64,000 bases of DNA, taken from assembly GCF_014647195.1 (NCBI RefSeq), contig NZ_BMOS01000011.1, forward strand, positions 2,858 to 66,857. The letters run 5' to 3'. Position 1 is the stretch's first letter, and each line of letters starts with the position of its first letter. Below, piece after piece: positions 2,092-57,816 of this stretch. This DNA comes from Oceanobacillus indicireducens. Lineage in GTDB: Bacteria > Bacillota > Bacilli > Bacillales > Amphibacillaceae. The position numbers were made by a program, and so were the translations under genes. Below the pieces are notes generated by a model. The model had not been told where the DNA came from and ran no database searches. It was given only the letters and a program-made list of their open reading frames with translations.

Positions 2092-4791
2092 CTACCATCC
2101 CTGCTCAAAGTATTTCCTCATTTCTTTCTGATTAAGTACTTCAGTGCAACTTTCCCAATCAACTTTCCCCACTGAGCTATTATATCTATTTTCAAAAGGG
2201 TGTTTTTCTGGAACTTCATTAATCCGCTGTTTTGCCTTTTCAATATCGTTTAATGCAATATCCACCCACACATCTTCTAGGACATCTGGAAGTTGTCCAA
2301 ACACTCCATGGATGTTTTTAAACCGTTCAGATAGCAGACTGTGTACTCTATCTTCAACTGAATCTTTATATCTAAGATTATAAATGTGAACAACATCATT
2401 TACTTGTCCAATACGTTGAATACGCCCTTTTCTTTGTTCTAATCTTGTTGGATTCCAAGGCAAGTCAAGATTTATTAAGGAACCTAACGTCTGTAGATTA
2501 AGACCTTCACTCGCTGAGTCAGTACCAATTAATAGTCTTAATTTACGTTGCTTTACTAATAATTTTATTTCCTCTTTTTCCTTTTTAGTAAAACTACCGT
2601 CTAAAAATACTCCTGATTTTTCTCCTCCTGCGTATAAACCAACGCTTTCACCTGGGAATGTTTCCGATAGCTTTTGAGCAACCCATTTAGCTGTATCAAA
2701 GTATTGAGAGAATATGATACATCCCTTTTCGAGCCATTTCCAATCAGTTAAAATTTCTACTACCTTTTCAAACTTCGGATCAGAGTTTTCATTAGTTTCT
2801 AAAGCCTTTACATACTTTACAAGCAGTTCTTCTTCATCAAAAGTGAGGTTTTTAATACCTTCTTCTATATATTGGCCATCCTCTTCTTCAGCCCAATCCG
2901 AATAAGATGTATTCCATTCATTAAGCATCTTTCTTCCTGTACTTAAACCCGCTACAACGGAGCTACCTATTCTCTTCAACAGTAGAGTTTTAAGAAAACC
3001 GCTACTTTTGCTTCTCTTCCCTAATAAATCACAAAATTCTTCTGCGAAATTATAAGCCTGTTTTAGATAGCCTTTTAGCGGAAGAGAATCATCATCAGAT
3101 TCACCATGTAATTCCACTTCGATTTTCTGCAAATAAGGCTCGCCAGTTTCAGGGTTAATTTTGTTTTCTAAGTAGCTTCTCTCTCTTCTGACTACATGCC
3201 GAATATATGGATTAAATTTCTGGTAGAAGTCCTTGTCTAAAATATTTCCTATTCTTTTCTGATCTGGTTTTGAAAGGTCAAGTAAATTAGTATTTATAAC
3301 AAATTGATCCTCTTTTAGTCCAAGTCTTCTCCTAATCATTCCAAAATTCATTTCATCTTCATGGGATGGTGGAAAAGGATTGCGTATCCACTCCCAATTT
3401 TCAGGATTGAAGAATTCCATCTTTTCTTCACCCATTATCAGCTTTAAACTTCTTGGAATTTGCTCTCTTTTACGCCACAACGAATATTTATTTCCAAGAA
3501 CACTATCATTTTTTTGGCTTAAAATGTTCATTAAATCCCATAATTCGATTGGATAAAGCTGAATAGGTGTTGCAGTTGCTAGTAACATGCTTTTTGTACG
3601 CTTTGAGAGACTTAATAAAAAGTCGTAAAGATTATTCGGTTCAGGACTTTGATTTTCTTTCTTTTCACCTAAGTTTTTTCTTCTTGCTCTATGAGCTTCA
3701 TCAACAATTACGCACTCGTATTCTTTAGATAGCAACTCTTCGATTATAGGAGATTTAGAAACAATAAGTCCCTGCGATATTATACCAATCTTCCTTGGAC
3801 ACTTCTTGATATCCTCTATTCCTCTATTCGGATAACTAAAGCCATTTTCATCTATCCACTCTTTTCCATCCCATACAGCGGAAGGTATGTTAAGTAATGT
3901 ATTTAATTCATCTTGCCACTGCCATAAAAGTGCCTTAGGAACAATTACTAAAACTGGTTTTTCACCGTACAAAGCCATAAGCTGTGCTGACATCGCAAGT
4001 TGAATAGTTTTACCAAGTCCAACTTGATCAGCAAGAATATATCTTGCTCCATAACTTCGTTGGTGATCCCTAAAAGCTAAATTTACAAAATACTTTTGAT
4101 GCTCCCATAATCCAAATTCTCCTCTGATTACTGGAGATTCTACTGTGGTTGATGCAGGATCAGGGTTTTCTTTCCATTTTTCTACTGTATCTATTACTTT
4201 GCGTTCTGAAATCCTTTTAATGTCCTCAACAATCACTTCTGGTAAAGGAACTGCTGTTTCATCATTCCAAAGTGCATCAAATTCTTCTTGTACCCATTCT
4301 ACTGCATCTTTAGAGTCATCTTCCCAAATTAATTCGTAGTTAAGCTTCCAACCATTATAAGTTTCGTTTGCACTCCCTAAAAAGGTCGTTTGGCTCCCGT
4401 TTTCCAGTGTAATAATACCTGCTTTACCATGAATTAGACCAAACTTTTCATCTGGTACAACCCGTACTTCAAGTTTTCTACAAGAGAGTAATTCATATAG
4501 TTTTCTAAATCTCCTGGATGAATCAGGTAACTCTTCAGGCTTAAAATCAAACCATTCTTTTTTTATTGATGAGTGAGCAAGCCTGGCAGTTTCAACATCC
4601 TTTATGTCAAGGCTAGAATTACATATGACTCTTACTTTTCCCTCTATTTGTTCAATAGCCTCGCCCGCAACTTCTAAAATGGAGGAACTGAAGTATCCTG
4701 CAATTCTATCGTATCTTTTAGCATTCTTTAGTTTATTGTTCAAAAGAGAGGCATTTACAGCCTCTCTCCTTGTTGAATACCTTCGTATCAT
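2092..4791 (-). CDS. PLD-domain SNF2-type helicase (predicted anti-phage)
   Basis: The 899-residue protein fuses a phospholipase D-like nuclease domain to a superfamily 2 helicase. Residues 1-180 carry a PLD half-site: HGK at about 121-123 followed by GSANE at about 139-143. The helicase part shows Walker A DQVGLGKT at about 255-262, DEAH at about 364-367, the motif III sequence LLATATP near 405, and a C-terminal helicase domain with 'GTDSASEGLNLQ' and 'RKGRIQRIGQ', which is SNF2/RapA-like. Such proteins translocate on double-stranded DNA using ATP; a single PLD motif would need dimerisation to cut. It starts 18 bases after the methylase gene, so it is the next cistron of the defence operon. 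The likely role is recognising or cutting unmodified invading DNA (inference from context). No disruption is visible. Confidence 0.85.
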   Translation of the reverse strand: MIRRYSTRREAVNASLLNNKLKNAKRYDRIAGYFSSSILEVAGEAIEQIEGKVRVICNSSLDIKDVETARLAHSSIKKEWFDFKPEELPDSSRRFRKLYELLSCRKLEVRVVPDEKFGLIHGKAGIITLENGSQTTFLGSANETYNGWKLNYELIWEDDSKDAVEWVQEEFDALWNDETAVPLPEVIVEDIKRISERKVIDTVEKWKENPDPASTTVESPVIRGEFGLWEHQKYFVNLAFRDHQRSYGARYILADQVGLGKTIQLAMSAQLMALYGEKPVLVIVPKALLWQWQDELNTLLNIPSAVWDGKEWIDENGFSYPNRGIEDIKKCPRKIGIISQGLIVSKSPIIEELLSKEYECVIVDEAHRARRKNLGEKKENQSPEPNNLYDFLLSLSKRTKSMLLATATPIQLYPIELWDLMNILSQKNDSVLGNKYSLWRKREQIPRSLKLIMGEEKMEFFNPENWEWIRNPFPPSHEDEMNFGMIRRRLGLKEDQFVINTNLLDLSKPDQKRIGNILDKDFYQKFNPYIRHVVRRERSYLENKINPETGEPYLQKIEVELHGESDDDSLPLKGYLKQAYNFAEEFCDLLGKRSKSSGFLKTLLLKRIGSSVVAGLSTGRKMLNEWNTSYSDWAEEEDGQYIEEGIKNLTFDEEELLVKYVKALETNENSDPKFEKVVEILTDWKWLEKGCIIFSQYFDTAKWVAQKLSETFPGESVGLYAGGEKSGVFLDGSFTKKEKEEIKLLVKQRKLRLLIGTDSASEGLNLQTLGSLINLDLPWNPTRLEQRKGRIQRIGQVNDVVHIYNLRYKDSVEDRVHSLLSERFKNIHGVFGQLPDVLEDVWVDIALNDIEKAKQRINEVPEKHPFENRYNSSVGKVDWESCTEVLNQKEMRKYFEQGW

Positions 4792-4809
4792 TTATTTTCC
4801 GCACCTACC

Positions 4810-7752
4810 TTAAATACCATCATTTCTCACTGCCCCTTGTAATAATCGTGCGTAGTATGCGTCATTCTGCCAATGCTTCATGTGTGAAATATTTTCAAAC
4901 CTGGAAATAAACCCGAGAATTTCCATTATCGCAGAACGTTTATCCCAATACTCATTATCCTGATCATATTTTGCTTTCAAATAATTAATACCTTCTACTG
5001 TCGATTCTGCTTGAACACATTGATATAATGAAACTAAAACATGTCTCATTAAAGAACTTCCAAACACATCATTATCAACGCCTCTTGTTCGGTATTCTGT
5101 AGCAGTTTTCAGTCTAACTGAATTTGCCTTGAAGTTTTCAAACATATCTTTGTAATCCTTTACTCCAAAACCTCTTGCAAGCTCCTGGTAAGCACTCACT
5201 TGATATATATTACCCATTTCTAATTCAAGTCCTCGAATGAAGAAACGTTCTTCTGGAAGTAAATCCCTCCATACAAGACTATCCACTCCCTCTGGGATCA
5301 GATAATCATAGGCGATTTTAACTGCCTTATTAATTAAAGCTTCAATGGGATTTTCTTCATCAGAGTTCCTTGACTTGGATAATTCATATTGTACGTCAAT
5401 ACCTTCAATATCTTTATATGCTGTCAGGACCTTTAATGATGAAGCGTAAGCAGCTAATAAATAATCTGCATCTGTAAAGTTTGGATCTTCCTTATCATCA
5501 AGGTTTCTCATACTATCAATTTGAAATTGAACTTCTTTCTTTATCTTTCTATAAAGTTCATCCTGGAAAGCAATATCCTCAGAAGTTTGCTTTTTAAGAA
5601 TTAACAATACTGTCCCTTTTACATAATTCCCTCCATCTTTTAATCCTCCTGATTCTGTTTCAGTGGCAATGTTCCATGCAGATACTACTCTTAAACCTGA
5701 TGACCATAAGATCATCGCTAATTCAGCCCAAACTTTTGTATCTTGATGTGTAAACATGACAACTTGTGTACCATTGTCAGGCATTTTTTTAGAAAGGTTC
5801 TTGTATATATATATCATACTTTTATTAAATGATTCTCCAGTTCCTTTTACAGCCAAAACCCTTTTAGAATCTGAATACCATTCTGGAAAAATGTTTCTTA
5901 TCATGTTTTTATCCCATGCTAAAAATAGCTCTGCTAATTCATGATAATGAACGGCATCCGCATATGGGGGATCAGTAATCCAAATATCACTTTCATATTC
6001 TACTTCGCTAGCATTAAGGGGTTTTATTATGGATTTTGAATTTATAGGATAACTATTAATGTTAAAAAACCAAATTGACTTGTAAAGTGTTAATCCTCTA
6101 CATCCATAGTTAAACAACGTATTAAATGATTGATTATAAAATATATCTTTAACCGAAGGGCTTTTTCCTTTGTCCCATCTTGATAGTTTAGAGTTCCAAT
6201 TAGCACATTTATTTATTCCTAGTAATGCAATAACTTTTTCCTTTCGATTCTCAGCAAATCTATCTGCAACTTCAAATAATAAGCCAGTTAGTAATAATTG
6301 CCTTGGATTGTACAAATTACTCCAATTAGTCCAACCCTTTTCATAAGTTAATTGATTGGTATTCCATCCTTTCTCTATTAAAGAATTAGGAAGATAACCT
6401 TTTTCCCTCCACTGGTTGAACCTTTCCCTTAGCAAAGCTTCAACTTTATGCTCATTTTCAATATCTTTTTCGTTTGGCTCTACAAAATGCCTTATTATTT
6501 TTTCGTTACCATTTGAATCGGTTATTACTTCCTCATATCTGATACAATAGAGCCTTTCTGTAAAAATATCAGTATCCTGATTCTTAAAATCAGTATTGTC
6601 CCATTTTCTTAATTCATTTGGTGTATTATACCTGTAATCTCTTAAAATCCCATCATCTTTATCTTTCCTTATACTTGGAATTGGAGTAGAGTTCATGCAA
6701 TTCGGGCACTTCAACGAGTAATCATTAATAGTTACATTTTTTTCAGCTTGTTTTAACTCCTCGTTGGACACATTCTCTATAATTTTAATTTTATAATTCT
6801 TATTAATTGAGTCCTTTTCTAATCTTGCAATAGTATTGGTTGGTCCCCTTCCAATAATTAGTGTAGGAAGTAACGGTATTTTATACCTACACTCAGGGCA
6901 AGTTGTCTCATTACAATATAGATATGCATTACCTCTCCAACCCTGTTCGTTCTCTTCTATACCCCAAGATAAAATAATATTGTTTGTTTCCTCATAAACT
7001 TTATGTTGAAATTCTTGTAATTTAGCAATTTCCTCATGATTCGCACCAGCAATATTTAATGAGGCCCAAGTTAACAAAGAAGCCACTGGATTCAAGTCAG
7101 ATGCATAAATATCAGCACCCATTCGACCTGCTTCAAAGGGTATGCTTCCACCACCAGCGAAGCAGTCGCCAATTCTTGGTACATGACCATATCTTTTTTC
7201 ACCAAGTTGTCTTGTAAGTTCTTGAAGATTCGAAGCTGTTGTTTCTAAATGGTCATTGATTTCTTGCCATGCACTTTCTGGTAAATTTTTTATGTGTTCT
7301 GGTCTGTCACTGTATTTAAGCTTATCATCATAAGATAATCTATTGAAAACTAATTGTTGCAAATGATCCTTTTCTGTCTTCTTTATCTCTTTTCTGTAAG
7401 TTGGCTTATCTACAGTAGAGTTCGTTGAAAAATACTTTTCCTTTTCATTATTAGTTAGCAGTTGAAACACTTGCTTTGTAGGTATATTCTTTGACTTTCT
7501 CATTAATAATCCTTCATTATCCATTGTTAGTAATTTCAAGAATATATCCCTATCCTTATTTGGATTTTCGGAAATTGGGAGTAACAATCCTAGTATGGTA
7601 GCTCTAACAAGAATAAGAGGCTTTCGACCCCACCACTTTCCAAGTCCTGTTAAAGTTTGTCCTTGAACTGCCTTTCTTTCTTTATAACTTTCCTTCGATA
7701 CCTTAGATACAGGAAATTGTGTTTCTATAAATGACTTACTATAATCCAACAA
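4810..7752 (-). CDS. DUF1156-containing DNA methylase (predicted anti-phage)
   Basis: A 980-residue putative adenine- or cytosine-N4-specific DNA methyltransferase. The N-terminal 60 residues ('GLGKWWGRKPLILVRA') are the DUF1156 signature. An AdoMet-binding motif I, 'DCFAGGGSIPFEA', lies near residues 197-208 with 'SDLNPVAS' following. The catalytic DPPY lies far downstream near 595, as usual in this family. Between them are paired CxxC motifs (CPEC near 285, CPNC near 350) that look like zinc ribbons. The gene is 13 bases after the DUF3780 gene and 18 bases before the helicase gene. In this kind of cassette the methylase is thought to mark host DNA so that the helicase/nuclease spares it; that role is inferred. 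All catalytic motifs are intact. Confidence 0.88.
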   Translation of the reverse strand: MLDYSKSFIETQFPVSKVSKESYKERKAVQGQTLTGLGKWWGRKPLILVRATILGLLLPISENPNKDRDIFLKLLTMDNEGLLMRKSKNIPTKQVFQLLTNNEKEKYFSTNSTVDKPTYRKEIKKTEKDHLQQLVFNRLSYDDKLKYSDRPEHIKNLPESAWQEINDHLETTASNLQELTRQLGEKRYGHVPRIGDCFAGGGSIPFEAGRMGADIYASDLNPVASLLTWASLNIAGANHEEIAKLQEFQHKVYEETNNIILSWGIEENEQGWRGNAYLYCNETTCPECRYKIPLLPTLIIGRGPTNTIARLEKDSINKNYKIKIIENVSNEELKQAEKNVTINDYSLKCPNCMNSTPIPSIRKDKDDGILRDYRYNTPNELRKWDNTDFKNQDTDIFTERLYCIRYEEVITDSNGNEKIIRHFVEPNEKDIENEHKVEALLRERFNQWREKGYLPNSLIEKGWNTNQLTYEKGWTNWSNLYNPRQLLLTGLLFEVADRFAENRKEKVIALLGINKCANWNSKLSRWDKGKSPSVKDIFYNQSFNTLFNYGCRGLTLYKSIWFFNINSYPINSKSIIKPLNASEVEYESDIWITDPPYADAVHYHELAELFLAWDKNMIRNIFPEWYSDSKRVLAVKGTGESFNKSMIYIYKNLSKKMPDNGTQVVMFTHQDTKVWAELAMILWSSGLRVVSAWNIATETESGGLKDGGNYVKGTVLLILKKQTSEDIAFQDELYRKIKKEVQFQIDSMRNLDDKEDPNFTDADYLLAAYASSLKVLTAYKDIEGIDVQYELSKSRNSDEENPIEALINKAVKIAYDYLIPEGVDSLVWRDLLPEERFFIRGLELEMGNIYQVSAYQELARGFGVKDYKDMFENFKANSVRLKTATEYRTRGVDNDVFGSSLMRHVLVSLYQCVQAESTVEGINYLKAKYDQDNEYWDKRSAIMEILGFISRFENISHMKHWQNDAYYARLLQGAVRNDGI

Positions 7753-7765
7753 AGGATTTCTCCCC

Positions 7766-8326
7766 CTATTTTACATTTTTATAAAACATCTCAAACATAT
7801 TTACCTGACTTTTATCTTCATCATCAATTGGGTTTTCTGTTAAAGCAAATCTAATCGCCTTCCTCCAACCTCTTTTATCATCAGCATGACCTGTAATTGC
7901 ATTTGCCATAGTAAAGAGCCACCATCGCTCTTCTCTACTTAATCCTGACCAATTTTTTATTGCAGTAGATATTAGTTGGGGATCAGAGTCCTCAATTGCC
8001 CACATTAACAAAACCATTTCTTTACCTAATAACCTCTCAATTGGAACATGACCAATTTTAAACCTTCCTACTGTAACATCATTCTCTTTCAACCTGTTAT
8101 TAAAAGAGGTTGTTAAAAAATCTTTTATTGAATTCCATTTATGTCGGTCCAATGTTACTCTCAGGTTGTCTTCAACAATCCCTGTTTCTTGATTTTCAGA
8201 TTCATCCCAATCAAATCGTTCATAAACCGCAACATCCTCATTGGGGCTTCTAGGCGTTACAAGTAAAAAATGATGTTTAGATTCTTGAGGTAAATAGCCA
8301 AAACCTAACGCCCTTTTTTTCGTCAT
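7766..8326 (-). CDS. DUF3780 protein (predicted anti-phage accessory)
   Basis: The 186-residue protein has the DUF3780 core between residues 95 and 165: 'LLGKEMVLLMWAIED', then 'NWSGLSREERWWLFTMANA', then 'GWRKAIRFALTENP'. There is no signal peptide or membrane segment. DUF3780 has no known enzymatic activity; the family is found almost only beside DUF499 ATPases and DUF1156 methylases, which is exactly the arrangement here (12 bases after the DUF499 gene, 13 before the methylase). It may be an adaptor between ATPase and methylase, but that is only inference from the strict co-occurrence. Confidence 0.85.
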   Translation of the reverse strand: MTKKRALGFGYLPQESKHHFLLVTPRSPNEDVAVYERFDWDESENQETGIVEDNLRVTLDRHKWNSIKDFLTTSFNNRLKENDVTVGRFKIGHVPIERLLGKEMVLLMWAIEDSDPQLISTAIKNWSGLSREERWWLFTMANAITGHADDKRGWRKAIRFALTENPIDDEDKSQVNMFEMFYKNVK

Positions 8327-8338
8327 TAAACTGCCTCC

Positions 8339-11300
8339 TTATTGGCTTATACTATTTCTGTATGACTCCAAACTGCCTTTGTTTTCAGCAACCCAATCCT
8401 CAAAATTTTGACCTCTCTCAAAGATACACTTTTCTATATCCATAGAAACTTCAACGTTTTTATCAGTAAAGAATACATTTCTCAATTCATCTAATTGCTT
8501 CACAAATGAATTAGTTTCATGGAGAGCATAATTATCAAATGAAAGTTCTAACCAACTTTGTTGCATTGAATCCGTCTTCTCAAATACTTGCAAACTAACT
8601 CCTGACACTTTTGCCCTATGTTTGTTTAGTAGCTCCAACTGTTTATATACCTCGGCTGTTGTTGATGCGTTTAAAGTCTTATTTAATGTTAGTTGTTTTT
8701 CTTTATCGATTTCAATTTTTGTCTCTGTTATTGGAATTGAGAGTGGTTCCGAAAATATACCTAAATCTTCGTGTACTGCTATTGCTTGTAAAAACTTTGT
8801 CCCTTTTGGCACTTCAATAACGTCATTGTATACTCCACCGCTATTCTTCGGGTTTGAACCATCAGTAGTATATTTAATGGTTACTTTAGGTGAGGATGCT
8901 TTTAGCTCAATGTAATTACTCCCATTTTTATCAAATGTGTCGTATTGTAATTGAACATTATTTTTCCAATGTGTTATCGCTCCTGTAGCATGTTTCCCTG
9001 ACGAATCAACACATAAAAATGTTAATGCCAATTCTGTAGTCTTAAATGCGTTAAAATCCTTCACCTCTAATGAACCTGGGGTTGCATCACCATTTATTTC
9101 ATAATAAACTTTATCCCCATTTTGCTTAGTGATTTTTAATGTTACTTCTCCAGTGTCTTCATCCCTGTCTATTTCACGCACATTTACTGATGTCTCAGGT
9201 GCAGGAGGCTCTTTATCGAGATAGCCACCCTCTTCAATCCAAATTCCTTTTTTCAAACATTCATTTTTTAGATCTTCCAATGCTTGTGGATGGTGCCATG
9301 ACCAAGATGTTGTGGTTGCTGCACGTTCTTTTAAATCTATCCATCTCATTTGCCGAGAAGTAAATATACGTGCTTCAAATTTCCTTCTAAATGTTTCACT
9401 TGAAGTATCCTTATCAAATTTCATTACCTCGATAAGCACGTTTCGTATTTGTTCTTCAGCATCAAAGTTATTGTTCTTAAATTCCATTTTGAAATCATTA
9501 GATTCAAAACCATCCTCTGTTGGATAGTAAAGAGTAATGAATGTTTCTCTTGATGTTTGTAATAGATTCAGTCCAACTTTATGTAAAATAAACTGTGCTT
9601 GTTGGTATTGTGCATCACTCTCTGGAATTTTGTCTTCATTTTCCATTCTATTTATTATAGATTGAATTGCTTTTAACTGTTTTGAAACTTCTAATAAATT
9701 TTCCATTGAATTCCTTTGGCCAGTTAAAAACATGACCCTGTTTTTATATTTAACATTGTCATAAAACTCGGTTAAATCTTTTTGCAATCCAACTCCGTTT
9801 GGGTTAGGTTCAAACAAAATTAATGTAATTTTATCTTGTTTAATTTCAATTTCGTCAATAGCAGGAAAGACTTCTACTTCCTGATAACAATCTTTTAGTT
9901 TAGGTACAAACTTCTCTCCTAACACTTTTTTGATCTCTTGCTTTGCAATTTCGTCTGAATATGTGTCAACTAAGGAAAGTAGTTCAGCATTTACGTTTTT
10001 TACATCTTTAAAAAATAAACGATTATCTCGATCGGTATATAAGTACCATGCTTTCACCTTAAACTGTTCTAAAGCACCTTTAATATCAGTAATGTTTCTT
10101 CCTGGTTTAGCCATTACCCCGACTGCTTCTTGTAGTGATAAGCCGACTATTGCACCAGTAACATCACCTAATGAAGAAACTAAAAGTAATTTACTTAAGT
10201 CTTGCATATCCTGACTACCTGTTACTGAATCAATCTCCTCAGCCGCCGCCTTGCCCTGTTGGGCTATATCATGGGAAATCGCATTTGATAACCTTGGTTT
10301 AATACTCCTAACCATTGAAAACATTTCTGAATTATTTAAGTCCATATCAAACGCATTCAGTAAGTAATTGGATTTTGCCTTTGGATTATCACCCTTATAT
10401 AAATTTTTAACCATGATTCTCGTAAGTCTAATGAATCCTCTAGTTTGTTGAAATCCAGGATTTTCCCTAAACCTAGCAAATAAATCCTTTAAAGAAGGGT
10501 GGAATGGGTAAGCATCCATAATTCCTGTATAGAGCTGGTCAGGTGACTGATTTGTATAGTTCATTTGTTTGGCTTCTTTGACTGCTTCTTTATATCCCAT
10601 TGCGATTTCATGCTTTTCTTCTTCCGTTGCAGTTGTTTCAAACAATCGTTTCCTTAGAATATGGTACAAATCATCGGAGGTAGTTCCAACAGGCTCAATG
10701 TTGATGGAACTGCGACCAATTTCATTTTCCAATTCTTTAAAGGACTTTTGTATTAGTGCCGAACCTGTTTCATACGTTGCTTGGAGATCGGAGACTACCA
10801 AACAAACATTTGATAATTCTGCTTTTCCAAGAGCATTAAAGAGATTTGATAATGCATTAGTTGTAATATCCGCAAGAGTTCCTGTTCCAGACGGTATTGC
10901 CCTTACATATTGCAAATAAGTCGGTAATTCATCAAGTAAAATCAAAGTGGGTTGATCTTTTAGCAAGTTTATCCATGCTGATTGCCCAGGAGCCTTTAAT
11001 GGTGCATAATAATCCTTAAATAACTCTTCTTTTCCCAGTTGTCTCGCTATCTCTCCCCAAATACCATATGGAATATCACTTTCACGTCCTGTATAAGAAA
11101 CCACTCTTATTTCCTGTTCAAAACTAAATGAATCACCTAAGATCTCATTTCTCAGAGAAGGGTTTTTTGCCAATAGGCCAAGAGCAACCAAATTATGCGT
11201 CTTACCGCCACCCATTGCTTGTGTTAACTTAATAAGACCACTTTGTGACTTTCCCTCAAATCTTTTAAATGCAGTTTCAAATAAGTACTGCATGCCATCT

Positions 11301-11437
11301 GTTATGTATGTTTCTTTAAAGAATTCCTCCGCATCTATTGAATTATCAATTAAGTTTGCTAAATCCAATGTGTCATCTCTATTTGTTTCCTCAAATACAC
11401 TTTCTCTCGGTTTACATGCTTCAAAAAGACTTTTCAT
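8339..11437 (-). CDS. DUF499 AAA-type ATPase (predicted anti-phage)
   Basis: The 1032-residue protein carries a P-loop 'QAMGGGKTHNL' near residue 75 and a Walker B-like 'LILLDELPTYL' near 165, the DUF499 pattern. A middle region of about 500 residues is helical and charged. Near residues 850-905 lies a compact beta segment ('YTTDGSNPK', then 'VPKGT', then 'AIAVHEDLG') resembling the chitobiase/beta-hexosaminidase C-terminal-like Ig fold often used as a binding module. It is the large ATPase of the operon, after the 79-residue first gene and 12 bases before the DUF3780 gene. By analogy with other ATPase-containing defence systems it may remodel or sense DNA; the sequence does not show which. 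The ribosome site AGGAGG precedes the ATG. Confidence 0.87.
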   Translation of the reverse strand: MKSLFEACKPRESVFEETNRDDTLDLANLIDNSIDAEEFFKETYITDGMQYLFETAFKRFEGKSQSGLIKLTQAMGGGKTHNLVALGLLAKNPSLRNEILGDSFSFEQEIRVVSYTGRESDIPYGIWGEIARQLGKEELFKDYYAPLKAPGQSAWINLLKDQPTLILLDELPTYLQYVRAIPSGTGTLADITTNALSNLFNALGKAELSNVCLVVSDLQATYETGSALIQKSFKELENEIGRSSINIEPVGTTSDDLYHILRKRLFETTATEEEKHEIAMGYKEAVKEAKQMNYTNQSPDQLYTGIMDAYPFHPSLKDLFARFRENPGFQQTRGFIRLTRIMVKNLYKGDNPKAKSNYLLNAFDMDLNNSEMFSMVRSIKPRLSNAISHDIAQQGKAAAEEIDSVTGSQDMQDLSKLLLVSSLGDVTGAIVGLSLQEAVGVMAKPGRNITDIKGALEQFKVKAWYLYTDRDNRLFFKDVKNVNAELLSLVDTYSDEIAKQEIKKVLGEKFVPKLKDCYQEVEVFPAIDEIEIKQDKITLILFEPNPNGVGLQKDLTEFYDNVKYKNRVMFLTGQRNSMENLLEVSKQLKAIQSIINRMENEDKIPESDAQYQQAQFILHKVGLNLLQTSRETFITLYYPTEDGFESNDFKMEFKNNNFDAEEQIRNVLIEVMKFDKDTSSETFRRKFEARIFTSRQMRWIDLKERAATTTSWSWHHPQALEDLKNECLKKGIWIEEGGYLDKEPPAPETSVNVREIDRDEDTGEVTLKITKQNGDKVYYEINGDATPGSLEVKDFNAFKTTELALTFLCVDSSGKHATGAITHWKNNVQLQYDTFDKNGSNYIELKASSPKVTIKYTTDGSNPKNSGGVYNDVIEVPKGTKFLQAIAVHEDLGIFSEPLSIPITETKIEIDKEKQLTLNKTLNASTTAEVYKQLELLNKHRAKVSGVSLQVFEKTDSMQQSWLELSFDNYALHETNSFVKQLDELRNVFFTDKNVEVSMDIEKCIFERGQNFEDWVAENKGSLESYRNSISQ

Positions 11438-11477
11438 AATTTGCCTCCTATTTGATAGTTATCAACGCAAAAAGTAA

Positions 11478-11717
11478 TCAATAATCAATATTCAATATCC
11501 TTCTTACTATTTCCAGTCTTCTTTTACCACATTGCTGTTGAATAATTGTTGTAAACCTATCCCCTTTTACAAACTTATTTGGGTTGTTTTCATGTAACGC
11601 TTTAATGTATTCAATCATTTGTTGTTCAGAAATTTCATCATTCCAATGACTATCGACTATTTGATTTACCGCAGAAGCTAAGTGTCTTTGCGTTCTATAA
11701 AACAACTTTACTTCCAA
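11478..11717 (-). CDS. TIGR04540-like small protein, first gene of defence operon
   Basis: A 79-residue basic protein starting at a TTG behind AAAGGGGGG. The sequence 'LFYRTQRHLASAVNQIVD' and the C-terminal 'IIQQQCGKRRLEIVRRIL' match what I recall of the TIGR04540 family, small cytosolic proteins of Bacilli and Clostridia without known function. It sits 40 bases before the DUF499 gene on the same strand and is therefore the probable first cistron. A role as operon regulator or as a DNA-binding subunit is possible from size, charge and position, but not shown. Confidence 0.65.
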   Translation of the reverse strand: MEVKLFYRTQRHLASAVNQIVDSHWNDEISEQQMIEYIKALHENNPNKFVKGDRFTTIIQQQCGKRRLEIVRRILNIDY

Positions 11718-11744
11718 AGATTTGCCCCCCTTTACAGACTATGC

Positions 11745-11811
11745 TTTTACTCTACTTTTATTTTACTCTTACTCACCGTAAATAACAATCGTAATTAGCT
11801 TTATTGTCCAA
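11745..11811 (-). promoter_or_regulatory. Candidate promoter and direct repeats before defence operon
   Basis: Reading the minus strand, TTGGAC (11811-11806) and TGTTAT (11787-11782) are separated by 18 bases and could be a weak sigma-A promoter. Downstream, AGAGTAAAA occurs twice (11769-11761 and 11753-11745) exactly 16 bases apart, between the putative -10 and the first gene. The repeats could be an operator. This is pattern reading only. Confidence 0.3.
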
Positions 11812-11817
11812 TAAAAA

Positions 11818-11856
11818 AGGCTACCGATAACCTTTGAGTCTTAGTACAGTAGCCTT
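11818..11856 (-). terminator. Intrinsic terminator of the broken regulator gene
   Basis: The stem AAAGGCTAC/GTAGCCTTT with a loop of about 20 bases is followed on the minus strand by a T-run. It lies immediately after the stop of the frameshifted regulator and before the defence operon promoter. Confidence 0.55.
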
Positions 11857-12133
11857 TAATATGTTCTATTACTTAGCGTTTTTCCCTTTTTTGCAATATT
11901 CCCTAAATAAATATTAATACCCTCTGTTGACCACATTGCCAGTAACATCCTTAGCCTTGTATCCATTTCAGAAACCTCCGATATTTTTCTATTCGAAAAA
12001 TGTAAGAAGGTGAGTATCCGACTATATCAGACATGTCTTGTAATGTAAGGTTGTTCTGCAATCGATATTCATGTAACAGACCTCCAAAGCCTTATTGATT
12101 CTTTTCATTCTTTTCTCCTCAATCATATTTCAT
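11856..12133 (-). pseudogene. Frameshifted XRE-type regulator remnant
   Basis: Three consecutive reading frames of the minus strand give parts of one protein. The first part is 'MIEEKRMKRINKALE' from 12126. After a shift comes 'LLHEYRLQNNLTLQDMSD' continuing 'IVGYSPSYIFRIEKYRR', a clear XRE helix-turn-helix. After a second shift comes 'VSEMDTRLRMLLAMWSTEGI' to the stop at 11856. A ribosome site (GGAGGAG) is preserved upstream. Joined, it would be about 90 residues. Two frameshifts make it non-functional. It may be an old regulator of the neighbouring island or unrelated debris. Confidence 0.55.
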
Positions 12134-12308
12134 TCTCCTCCTATTAATAGTCACTGACAATTTGCCAGTACCTTGTTTTTATGAACCTCTTATTATAAGC
12201 ACCTATGTTACCCCCTATAACTATAAATTGAAAAACAGTTATATTTCTTGTCTAGGAATCTACTATATAGAAATATTGAAAAAGACATACAAAAGTAAAG
12301 GAGTGATA

Positions 12309-12398
12309 GTGTTGAAAGAAGGAGAATTCATGATTTTATCAATGAAAGAGAAACTAAAAACTGTTAACAAAATGCTGGAGAAGGAGGACTTACTTTAA
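12309..12398 (+). pseudogene. Possible IS21-type transposase (IstA) N-terminal relic
   Basis: A 29-codon frame starts GTG-TTG behind AAAGGAG and reads MLKEGEFMILSMKEK followed by LKTVNKMLEKEDLL. The first half resembles the start of IS21-family IstA proteins and the second half resembles the 'RKTVxKxLxxED' stretch that in IstA lies about 20 residues further on, so an internal deletion is plausible. No terminal repeats or istB are visible. It could instead be a short unrelated ORF. Confidence 0.35.
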
Positions 12399-12432
12399 TC
12401 TTAAAGGGTTTATATTTTAAACCAAATCTTAC

Positions 12433-12912
12433 CTATTTATGATAAGGTTCCCCCCTAACAATCCTAAACCCCCGATACACCTGCTCCAACAAAACCAACC
12501 GCATCAACTGATGAGGAAACGTCAGCTTCGAAAAGGACAGCGCAAAATCACTCCGCTTTCGTACTTCATCACTAATCCCAAGCGACCCACCAATCACAAA
12601 AGCAATCTTACTCTTACCATACGTCGCAAGCTCATCCATTTTCGCGGCAAGACCTTCCGATGTCAGCATCTTTCCTTCAATCTCAAGCGTGATGACATAC
12701 GTATCAGGTTTAATAGCGCCAAGGATTCGTTCGCCTTCCTTACGTTTCACCATGTCCATCTCCGCTTCACTCATCGTTTCCGGTGCTTTCTCATCAGCCA
12801 ATTCGACAATGGAAACGTCGGCATAGCTCGATAGGCGCTTCAGATATTCCTGAGTGCCTTGCTTGAGGTATTTTTCCTTTAATTTACCGACAGAAATGAT
12901 TGTTATTTTCAT
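12433..12912 (-). CDS. rlmH: 23S rRNA (pseudouridine1915-N3)-methyltransferase RlmH
   Basis: The 159-residue protein matches RlmH over its full length: N-terminal [19 protein letters not shown], the AdoMet-binding knot region '[14 protein letters not shown]', and the C-terminal '[18 protein letters not shown]' and 'RGEPYHK'. It is a SPOUT-class enzyme, normally a homodimer, that methylates pseudouridine 1915 in helix 69 of 23S rRNA on assembled ribosomes. In B. subtilis the gene is yydA, next to htrA; here several genes are inserted between them. The accessory block begins directly past its 3' end. Confidence 0.97.
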
Positions 12913-12927
12913 CTTCGTTCTTCCTCT

Positions 12928-13440
12928 CTATTTCCACGCGTAGTCGCTCTTATTATCTATCATATCCTGTTTCAGCCAAGATAGTAACGCATCCGTTTCA
13001 TCACGTTTAAAGGTAGGGTACGCAGCCGCTTCCTCTAAAGTAAAAGGAGACACAACTGCTTTTATATTCTTCACTCTATCAAGAAGTAACTGATCCCTTT
13101 TCCGAGACAAAAGCACAAGCTTAGGAAGTGACTGATCTTTAAATCCTTCCACGACAAGTACATCTATTTTCATAAAGCAATAGAAATCAATCATCTGCTC
13201 CAGCGATAAATCAGGAGCTGAAAATTGAAAAACTCCTTCTCCTTCGACTCCTGCGATAGCCGCTCCGGCCCTGCGATGTTTTTCACTATCGGTATTACTA
13301 AATCCAAGGGGGATGCCACCATGTCCATGATGCTTAAGGGAACCCACTTTTAGGCCTGTTTCTGTGAACGTTTCAATTATTTTGGTCGAAAGGGTTGTTT
13401 TACCGCTATTTTTGTATCCGGTAATTTGGATGATTTTCAT
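12928..13440 (-). CDS. mobB: Molybdopterin-guanine dinucleotide biosynthesis protein MobB
   Basis: A 170-residue P-loop GTP-binding protein. The Walker A 'GYKNSGKTTLSTKI' lies at residues 8-21, 'SLKHHGHGG' follows near 34, and 'VLVVEGFKDQSLPKLVLL' lies near 114-131; all are typical of MobB. It assists MobA in attaching GMP to molybdopterin. No other molybdenum-cofactor genes are near, so it is isolated from its pathway here. It is 15 bases upstream of rlmH and probably cotranscribed with it. Confidence 0.93.
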   Translation of the reverse strand: MKIIQITGYKNSGKTTLSTKIIETFTETGLKVGSLKHHGHGGIPLGFSNTDSEKHRRAGAAIAGVEGEGVFQFSAPDLSLEQMIDFYCFMKIDVLVVEGFKDQSLPKLVLLSRKRDQLLLDRVKNIKAVVSPFTLEEAAAYPTFKRDETDALLSWLKQDMIDNKSDYAWK

Positions 13441-50030: not shown

Positions 50031-50470
50031 GAACAAAGGCGCAAGCGCCCTTGCAGGTTAAAAACGCGACGTCCTGTCGCAACACCTGCACTAGCACATC
50101 CTGTGCGTCGTAGCAACGTACAAACTGTGCCTCCTAGGATAGGAGGTAGTTCGATGTTGCCCCAGGACGGGGCGAATTTAATCGGACTTCCCCTTTACCG
50201 GAATGAGATAAAGGAAACATGCCCCTTTAGGGGTATGCCGATGTTGGGACTTGGCCCGTTCTTAGTCGGCCTTCCTTTTCTCTCTGAGTGGACGTTGAAC
50301 TTCACCACAAGGGTATAACGGCGACTAACCCTCACAAAGACCACTCGGCAAGTCTTCTTTATCGATTGGAGGAGTGTGAAGTTTGATAGTTGCTGGGCGC
50401 AGAGCGGACGTGGCTAGCTCTGGATATCTAAGTTACCCACAGCCATTATATCTTTTAGTTTCCTATGTAT
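50031..50470 (-). repeat. Origin-type intergenic repeat between oriC boxes and dnaA
   Basis: The longest copy, about 440 bases: GAACAAAGGCGCAAGCGCCC at one end; internal small hairpins such as CTCCTAGGATAGGAG and GCCCCTTTAGGGG; then GAGTGTGAAGTTTGATAG, GGACGTGGCTAGC, a TTACCCACA (50433-50441) and AGTTTCCTAT at the other end. It matches the 57.5-kb copy in inverted orientation. It carries a 111-codon open frame that I take as chance. It separates the upstream oriC boxes from dnaA. Confidence 0.8.
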
Positions 50471-57489: not shown

Positions 57490-57816
57490 TGTAGATAGAA
57501 AACTATAAGAACAAAGTGCTGTGGATAACTATGAACACTGGCATTACCCACGTCCGCTCTGCGCCCACCAACTAGCAAACTTCACACTCCTCCAATCGAT
57601 AAAGAAGACTTGCCGAGTGGTCTTTGTGAGGCTTAGTCGCCCTTATACCCTTGTGGTGAAAGTCAACATCAACTCACTATCGTCGCCTGAGTTTCCTTTA
57701 TCTCATTCCGGAGTGCTCCAGTTTGTACGTTGCTACGACGCACAGGATGTGCTAGTGCAGGTGTTGCGACAGGACGTCGCGTTTTTAACCTGCAAGGGCG
57801 CTTGCGCCTTTGTTCT
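57490..57816 (+). repeat. Origin-type intergenic repeat between gyrB and gyrA
   Basis: Ends: AGAAAACTATAAGAACAAAG with an exact DnaA box TGTGGATAA (57520-57528), and GGGCGCTTGCGCCTTTGTTC. Shared blocks with the 50.0-kb copy, inverted: ATCGATAAAGAAGACTTGCC, GAGTGGTCTTTGTGAG, TTTATCTCATTCCGG, TTGCTACGACGCACAGGATG. It fills the gyrB-gyrA gap of about 420 bases. Confidence 0.8.

Follow-up and report, generated by a model that had tools for sequence, protein, structure and literature searches.

What does a small protein of unknown function do at the head of a defense operon? The question is raised by a 64,000-nt stretch of Oceanobacillus indicireducens contig NZ_BMOS01000011.1 (C11; the whole stretch is called the window here, and all positions refer to it unless a contig is named), in which a gene of the family TIGR04540 precedes genes for an ATPase, a DUF3780 protein, a methylase, and a helicase on the minus strand. 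According to a passage of PMC12255303, much less is known about the regulation of defense operons, whether ahead of infection or in its course, than about their action. We consider it likely that the window carries a system of the Type-2 BR (BREX-related; BREX, bacteriophage exclusion) kind led by a portable autorepressor module, which is composed of TIGR04540 and a promoter with direct repeats. The five genes are as follows.

11478..11717, minus strand: TIGR04540 small protein, 79 residues, TTG start (TIGR04540.1, E 1.1e-29)
8339..11437, minus strand: DUF499 AAA+ ATPase, 1032 residues (PADLOC PDLC02192, E 2.5e-194; Pfam PF04465)
7766..8326, minus strand: DUF3780 protein, 186 residues (PF12635, E 2e-49)
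4810..7752, minus strand: DUF1156 DNA adenine methylase, 980 residues, TTG start (NF042963, E = 0)
2092..4791, minus strand: PLD-nuclease/SNF2 helicase, 899 residues (NF042964 full length, E = 0; PLDc_2, SNF2, Helicase_C)

All five open reading frames (ORFs) at 2092-11717 and their intergenic gaps (40, 12, 13, and 18 bases) were reproduced, in agreement with the first-pass annotation of this DNA, which had described a five-gene block with gaps of 12 to 40 bases. A G-rich Shine-Dalgarno-like stretch stands ahead of each of the five genes, and a consensus scan gave no terminator-like site between the operon genes on the minus strand, its sole minus-strand site being inside the methylase gene. 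We read the five ORFs as a single minus-strand operon, and this anatomy backs the earlier description of one putative anti-phage operon with intact genes.

TIGR04540 and its repeat promoter

The window copy scored 102.3 bits against TIGR04540.1 (cut-off, 50), an NCBIfam family of unknown function, and neither Pfam nor PADLOC gave a match for it. The family was over the cut-off in 14 of the 147 relatives' genomes and was found in 10 of 398 genomes of the class (some of them shared with the 147 relatives); at E values up to 1e-5, it was present in 2 of 72,556 plasmid records and in 0 of 50,697 phage records. For comparison we used 81 loci, namely, the window and the best 80 of 92 places in the species collection. 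These loci were gathered by the small protein alone, and thus the genes behind TIGR04540 were not preselected.

Side-by-side reading of the loci first revealed a common stretch upstream of TIGR04540. In the window it lies ahead of the start codon at 11717 and comprises the following elements.

11783..11788, minus strand: -35 element TTGTTA, 17 bp from the -10 element, also found in the consensus scan
11760..11765, minus strand: -10 element TAAAAT (TAAAAT or TAGAAT in 69 of 80 loci)
11745..11774, minus strand: operator-like direct repeats GTAA (11772), ATAA (11761), and GTAA (11750), with an 11-bp period, straddling the -10 element

Gene and operator are linked. With a 30-bp weight matrix applied leave-one-out, 77 of the 81 loci exceeded the 99.9% shuffle score and 65 exceeded the best of 1620 shuffles, the window's motif scoring 30.3 bits; elsewhere in the 80 scan loci (2.99 million positions), no match above 14 bits was obtained. 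Three matches to TIGR04540 below the cut-off (L026, L027, and L144) were left out of this test. Among ten held-out loci the motif was found in eight, and the two without it encode divergent proteins with 40% identity to that of the window. Alignment of 80 of the 81 loci (one was left out) gave T (85%), T (95%), and G (84%) at the place of the -35 element, 17 bases ahead of the -10 element; the best -35 hexamer at a spacer of 16 to 18 starts with TTG in 63 of 80 loci, and RTAA cores are most commonly spaced at 11 (106 cases) and 22 (75 cases). Furthermore, the 26-base consensus, with up to three mismatches allowed, matched the 3.87-Mb genome of the strain once, at the window promoter and without mismatch, and a reversed control pattern gave two chance matches at up to three mismatches. 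In BREX I operons of relatives, the repeats accompany TIGR04540 in six of six cases (five of which were in the training set) and are absent from all five operons that lack the gene. A reverse search with a loose pattern was not specific, since 81 of the 147 relatives matched at up to three mismatches, about equal to the reversed control; among the matches listed, the four with no or one mismatch (in the strain itself, G000, and in G091, G126, and G132) all lie at TIGR04540 genes, and those with two mismatches lie away from them.

TIGR04540 occupies the first position in front of mixed cargo. The next gene of at least 100 residues shares the strand of TIGR04540 in 80 of the 81 loci, with a median gap of 16 bp, and a recognized methylase is among the next eight genes of at least 100 residues in 75. 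Under a stricter rule (same strand, gap up to 400 bp) the count is 74, L061 failing through an ORF-picking error. The cargo was typed by gene clusters, by Pfam on representatives, and by comparison with annotated BREX genes, and it comprises 52 BREX I operons, 24 operons of other named types, and 5 unassigned ones.

BREX I: 52 of 81 loci
BREX with DUF6079 ATPase: 5 loci (PglZ in one representative, SNF2 helicase in the other)
SNF2 helicase, DUF4391, and Mod: 4 loci
DISARM-like (defense island system associated with restriction-modification): 3 loci (MrfA zinc-binding and helicase parts; two with Mod farther on)
The window's kind (Type-2 BR set): 2 loci
Eco57I-type methylase-helicase fusion: 2 loci
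UvrD-PD(D/E)XK and Mod: 2 loci
HsdMSR: 1 locus
Mod-Res: 1 locus
Other methylase operons: 4 loci

The BREX I label denotes clusters matching annotated BREX genes of a Mesobacillus plasmid at 26 to 97% identity, and the names of the methylase clusters derive from one or two representatives per cluster; the motif [DNSTC]PP[YFWHI] is present in all members of the methylase clusters except that of L100. There, the MmeI-like methylase is broken into two pieces that lie in different reading frames (10519-13280, the second piece being uncounted), so that the L100 operon may be decayed. Six loci have no counted methylase: the contig breaks off in L074 and in L104, the latter containing a piece of PglX, L063 reaches the end of the extracted stretch, and in L058, L062, and L102 none was recognized in 10 kb, where L058 and L062 were Pfam-searched in part and L102 was outside the Pfam search. 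L102 contains inverted brxA- and brxB-like pieces. The two plasmid copies differ in cargo as well: the one of Mesobacillus foraminis heads an annotated BREX I operon, and the one of Enterococcus hirae heads genes for a helicase, DUF4391, a methylase, and a helicase. In Bacillota, TIGR04540 heads BREX and DISARM-like operons as well as several types of restriction-modification (RM) system (types I and III, with others assigned by their Pfam content).

Two cargo exchanges were observed. In L109 (Jeotgalicoccus) and L119 (Vagococcus), the 600 bp upstream share 93 to 95% identity and the TIGR04540 gene 90%, and downstream identity is at background; behind the break stand SNF2/DUF4391/Mod in one locus and BREX I in the other. 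Likewise, L096 and L106 compared with L116 share 91 to 95% upstream and 78 to 79% in the gene, with background identity downstream. Since the break lies directly behind the gene, promoter and TIGR04540 stay in these cases while the operon changes. Exchange was seen in 3 of 14 pairs tried, the other pairs having no near-identical upstream stretch. A TIGR04540 tree gave at least 17 cargo changes across 76 labeled rows (five loci labeled "other" were excluded), and because only 7 of its 78 inner branches are well supported, we claim no number of exchanges.

Besides, cluster c7, together with c5 and c6, was noted as a recurrent carrier of different TIGR04540-led operons, as upstream of L057; c7 is RadC-like, c5 and c6 belong to no known family, and a large serine recombinase is present in several of these loci. 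L040 and L041 have divergent TIGR04540 genes at the head of a different operon. Its second protein (93 residues) resembles, by eye, the initial part of the DUF499 protein in the window, and the promoters of the two loci seem to contain TAAGAA-like repeats of another form.

Proposed action of TIGR04540

An AlphaFold2 model built from the 81-sequence input (mean predicted local distance difference test score, 94.6) has helices at residues 10-25, 31-44, and 57-75, a short helix at 46-49, and a small hairpin. Thirteen residues are invariant in the 81 sequences, and six of these (T56, Q61, G64, K65, R67, and L68) fall within the last helix or at its start. No solved structure stood out in a structure alignment, whose compared list lacked the RptR entry 9R2Z and is silent on RptR. 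TIGR04540 was rejected as a shortened BrxA (hhalign probability, 0.2%), and the best match among PDB sequences, the pyocin immunity protein 4qko (E 0.2), is not meaningful.

We propose that the TIGR04540 protein binds the three direct repeats, which, at a spacing of 11 bp, share one face of the DNA around the -10 element, and that, once bound, it would repress its own transcript and with it the whole operon. The steady expression level would then be low, and entry into a new host without the repressor, or loss of the repressor during infection, might release a burst of methylase and effector.

One alternative is that TIGR04540 is an accessory subunit of modification-based defense complexes, either DNA-binding or methylase-stimulating, and that the repeats are merely a strong promoter. 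The preponderance of methylase-bearing operons behind the gene (75 of 81) would fit a methylase partner, and two divergent copies lack the modeled motif. However, the downstream methylases are of unrelated types (PglX, DUF1156, Mod, HsdM, Eco57I-like, and MmeI-like), all of which one small subunit would have to fit, and 5 of 11 BREX operons in relatives as well as a complete DUF499 operon exist without TIGR04540, the repeats being likewise absent from those five BREX operons. We regard this alternative as unlikely.

C proteins of type II RM systems exert timing control, and TIGR04540 might similarly act on the repeats to activate or to delay expression. Timing does matter for methylase-bearing cargo on mobile elements, but repeats that overlap the -10 element lead one to expect that the bound protein blocks the polymerase, and most loci already possess both promoter hexamers at about 17 bp, which makes such a role quite improbable. 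It is hardly credible that gene and promoter are a hitchhiking carrier stretch that marks a recombination joint and controls nothing; although upstream carrier genes recur (RadC-like c7 in 15 and c8 in 11 of 81 loci) and cargo is exchanged directly behind TIGR04540, the 13 invariant residues and the retention of the module across different carriers, plasmids, and sites speak against it, and an 11-bp periodicity would not be expected of a mere joint.

The autorepressor reading has a parallel in RptR of Escherichia coli. As described in passages of PMC12255303, RptR has 79 residues, is encoded by the first ORF, has three direct repeats over the -10 element, and represses about 10-fold, and hsdM of its operon rises more than 15-fold within an hour of infection. 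Both proteins are of 79 residues and helical, and both are encoded by the first gene of a methylase-bearing defense operon with three direct repeats overlapping the -10 element. They differ in that the TIGR04540 repeats are RTAA cores 11 bp apart, whereas those of RptR are TAGCTA palindromes in 9-bp units; TIGR04540 occurs in Bacillota and RptR mainly in Gammaproteobacteria; and the cargo of TIGR04540 is mainly BREX, with many others, whereas that of RptR is mainly type I RM. By sequence, TIGR04540 was rejected as an RptR homologue, with an hhalign probability of 0.3% against eight RptR-like sequences (the row L186, which contains stops, was left out). Pfam HTH_73 has no match in TIGR04540, whereas an E. 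coli RptR homologue scores 2.4e-29, and no TAGCTA, TAGATA, TATCTA, or TATATA site is present in the 100 bases before the window's start codon. Because TIGR04540 matches RptR in size, position, and operator layout and yet has no sequence relation to it that could be detected, we suggest that it works in the manner of RptR and do not assign it to that family, although a remote relation below the sequence level may exist. In a Shewanella baltica plasmid (L183) and an Agrobacterium plasmid (L182), RptR-like genes lie beside a helicase gene and, on the other strand, a SacI-type endonuclease gene; these neighbors suggest that the role of RptR may likewise extend beyond type I systems.

BrxR proteins are likewise repressors found with diverse defense systems. 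According to passages of PMC9122601, these WYL-domain repressors bind inverted repeats and occur predominantly in Proteobacteria, in contrast to TIGR04540 with its direct repeats in Gram-positive bacteria. A literature search on promoter repeats and repressors of BREX and RM systems found RptR, with no title on the TIGR04540 module among the matches listed, and a search for texts mentioning TIGR04540 found none, most subscription papers being outside its reach. The control module may constitute a new family of defense-operon regulator.

On balance, we favor the broader view that TIGR04540 and the 11-bp-repeat promoter form a general-purpose control cassette for methylation-dependent immunity in Bacillota, which moves between mobile elements and has whole BREX, RM, DISARM-like, or Type-2 BR operons swapped behind it. 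If this is true, unrelated defense systems would be expressed under a common logic and would offer phages a common target, and through a single regulator a phage or the host could turn many systems up or down. The retention of a self-limiting promoter would be a reason why cargo can be swapped safely. Moreover, a small protein of unknown function would gain a role spanning BREX and several RM types in Gram-positive bacteria, and TIGR04540 could be used as a marker for finding methylation-dependent defense operons.

The four large genes

Judged by their sequences, the four large genes are of a known kind, the published Type-2 BR set, which is covered by PADLOC and NCBIfam models, and are not new. 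All four large proteins match dedicated models of a known anti-phage set. The methylase (NF042963, 1334.7 bits; cut-off, 1000) and the helicase (NF042964, 1337.3 bits; cut-off, 1100) pass the curated cut-offs, and the DUF499 protein (NF042962, 771.8 bits; cut-off, 1200) and the DUF3780 protein (NF042961, 157.7 bits; cut-off, 200) lie under them, which makes the window's set a somewhat divergent member. Of the copies found, that of Bacillus sp. ISL-55 (L046) is the nearest, with 68 to 87% identity across the four large proteins.

As given in passages of PMC12839542, Type-2 BR systems were described in 2026 from 1120 taxa, with DUF3780 in 98%, FnIII-like domains ahead of the C-terminal RRM of DUF499 in 53% of members, and a helicase whose N-terminal HKD (PLD) nuclease replaces Tudor. 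The window operon has all of the parts, i.e., the DUF499 ATPase, the DUF1156 N6-methylase, the HKD-SNF2 helicase, and a stand-alone DUF3780, and its DUF499 protein also contains one Fn3-like stretch (residues 840-891; PF13290/PF13287). In the helicase, Pfam places PLDc_2 at residues 19-175 and SNF2 from residue 231, and a Pfam search alone gave no match to a Tudor domain. A TIGR04540 first gene and promoter repeats are not mentioned in those passages.

The earlier claim that the catalytic motifs are intact held for the DUF499 protein (Walker A GGGKT and Walker B LLDE), the methylase (DPPY at residue 594 and an F-A-G-G-G loop), and the SNF2 part of the helicase (GLGKT, DEAH, and QRKGRIQR). The PLD site reads HGK...GSAN...NYE and lacks the Asp of the classic HxKx4D. 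The variant HGK...GSxNE...NYE occurs in both homologues compared (L046 and L005), and we therefore take it as a feature of the family and no lesion.

The set had also been likened to a helicase-methylase-ATPase (Hma) system. The systems are related and close, sharing an ATPase, a methylase, and a helicase, but identity with Hma was rejected, because each Hma profile is outscored by another model: HmaC (1.3e-46) by the DUF499 model (2.5e-194), HmaB (4e-26) by DUF1156_MTase (7e-264), and HmaA (3.4e-38) by PLD_Helicase (3e-251). DUF3780, which marks the Type-2 BR set, is absent from the description of Hma as far as its available passages go. The four-gene set is presumably the restriction-like system "Gao_RL". 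The available passages on Gao_RL list it as an SNF2-helicase system.

DUF3780 was found in 3 of the 147 relatives, i.e., the strain itself, G066, and G065. The complete set of four large genes is present in G066, which has neither TIGR04540 nor the repeats. TIGR04540 is not a fixed part of the four-gene system, and the earlier suggestion of a possible extra component was not supported: the gene is optional here and is the common first gene of many unrelated methylase-bearing operons, with promoter repeats of its own. In G065 (L006, 9388-9945, minus strand), a lone DUF3780 gene with 35% identity to that of the window lies among many small genes, perhaps of a phage or mobile element, and the other three genes are absent in 19.9 kb; it is possibly a decoy or counter-defense copy.

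By analogy with their families and with the Type-2 BR systems of PMC12839542, the DUF1156 methylase would mark self DNA, the DUF499 ATPase with DUF3780 would survey DNA, and the PLD-SNF2 helicase would move along and cut unmarked DNA.

The rlmH island and other features of the window

Upstream of the operon lies the end of a chromosomal gene that resembles an insertion site.

12433..12912, minus strand: rlmH, chromosomal gene at the island edge (PF02590, E 6.6e-59)
12433..12450 (C11:15290-15307), minus strand: rlmH 3' end, attachment-like site of the staphylococcal cassette chromosome (SCC) type; second copy at C11:748-765, outside the window

The 18-base rlmH end recurs at C11:748-765 (GAACCGTACCATAAGTAG versus GAACCTTATCATAAATAG). 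A degenerate pattern of this end matched three times in the 3.87-Mb genome, and its reversed control gave no match. The two ends bound a 14.5-kb island that holds the operon and three further ORFs of more than 100 residues, one of them DUF5677. The operon thus appears to sit in an rlmH-inserted, SCC-like island. It resembles SCC in its insertion at the rlmH 3' end and in the duplicated end and differs in that no recombinase gene was recognized in the 14.5 kb; past the second end, 747 bases of the contig remain. Genes with a Recombinase domain (PF07508) are located on contigs C34, C6, and C7 of the genome and none on C11, whose end lies close. The serine recombinases of C34 were rejected as the ccr genes of the island, as they form a resolvase-type row at the contig end and no rlmH-end repeats occur in the stretch read. 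The third exact rlmH-end-like site (C20:39310-39327) lies away from rlmH, with nothing recognized nearby in the ORF list.

The gene rlmH is present in 28 of 28 genomes of the genus, and the first ORFs downstream of it mostly differ across 29 readable loci, three pairs being alike. In L148, which has the most similar RlmH, a second rlmH end of its own follows after 1.46 kb. Among the 81 TIGR04540 loci, RlmH with at least 67% identity lies in the extracted upstream stretch in nine, and two more have only a diverged copy (56 to 58%). In L094 a large serine recombinase recognized by Pfam, and in L116 another recognized by its N-terminal signature, abuts rlmH and is followed by the TIGR04540 operon. 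Thus, rlmH islands are one home of the modules and not the only one. A literature search found no text combining rlmH and BREX, most subscription papers being outside the search.

Upstream in L073, L096, and L106, a diverged RlmH gene (56 to 58% identity to that of the window) is flanked by a recombinase-like gene on one side and by the TIGR04540 operon on the other, and L073 has both this gene and a 71% copy; the rlmH copy at the insertion site may be replaced by one that the element carries. Elsewhere in the window, Bacillaceae-1 RNA (RF01690) matched at 50051-50107 (plus strand), 50131-50197 (minus strand), and 57739-57795 (minus strand), the first two lying 23 bases apart on opposite strands.

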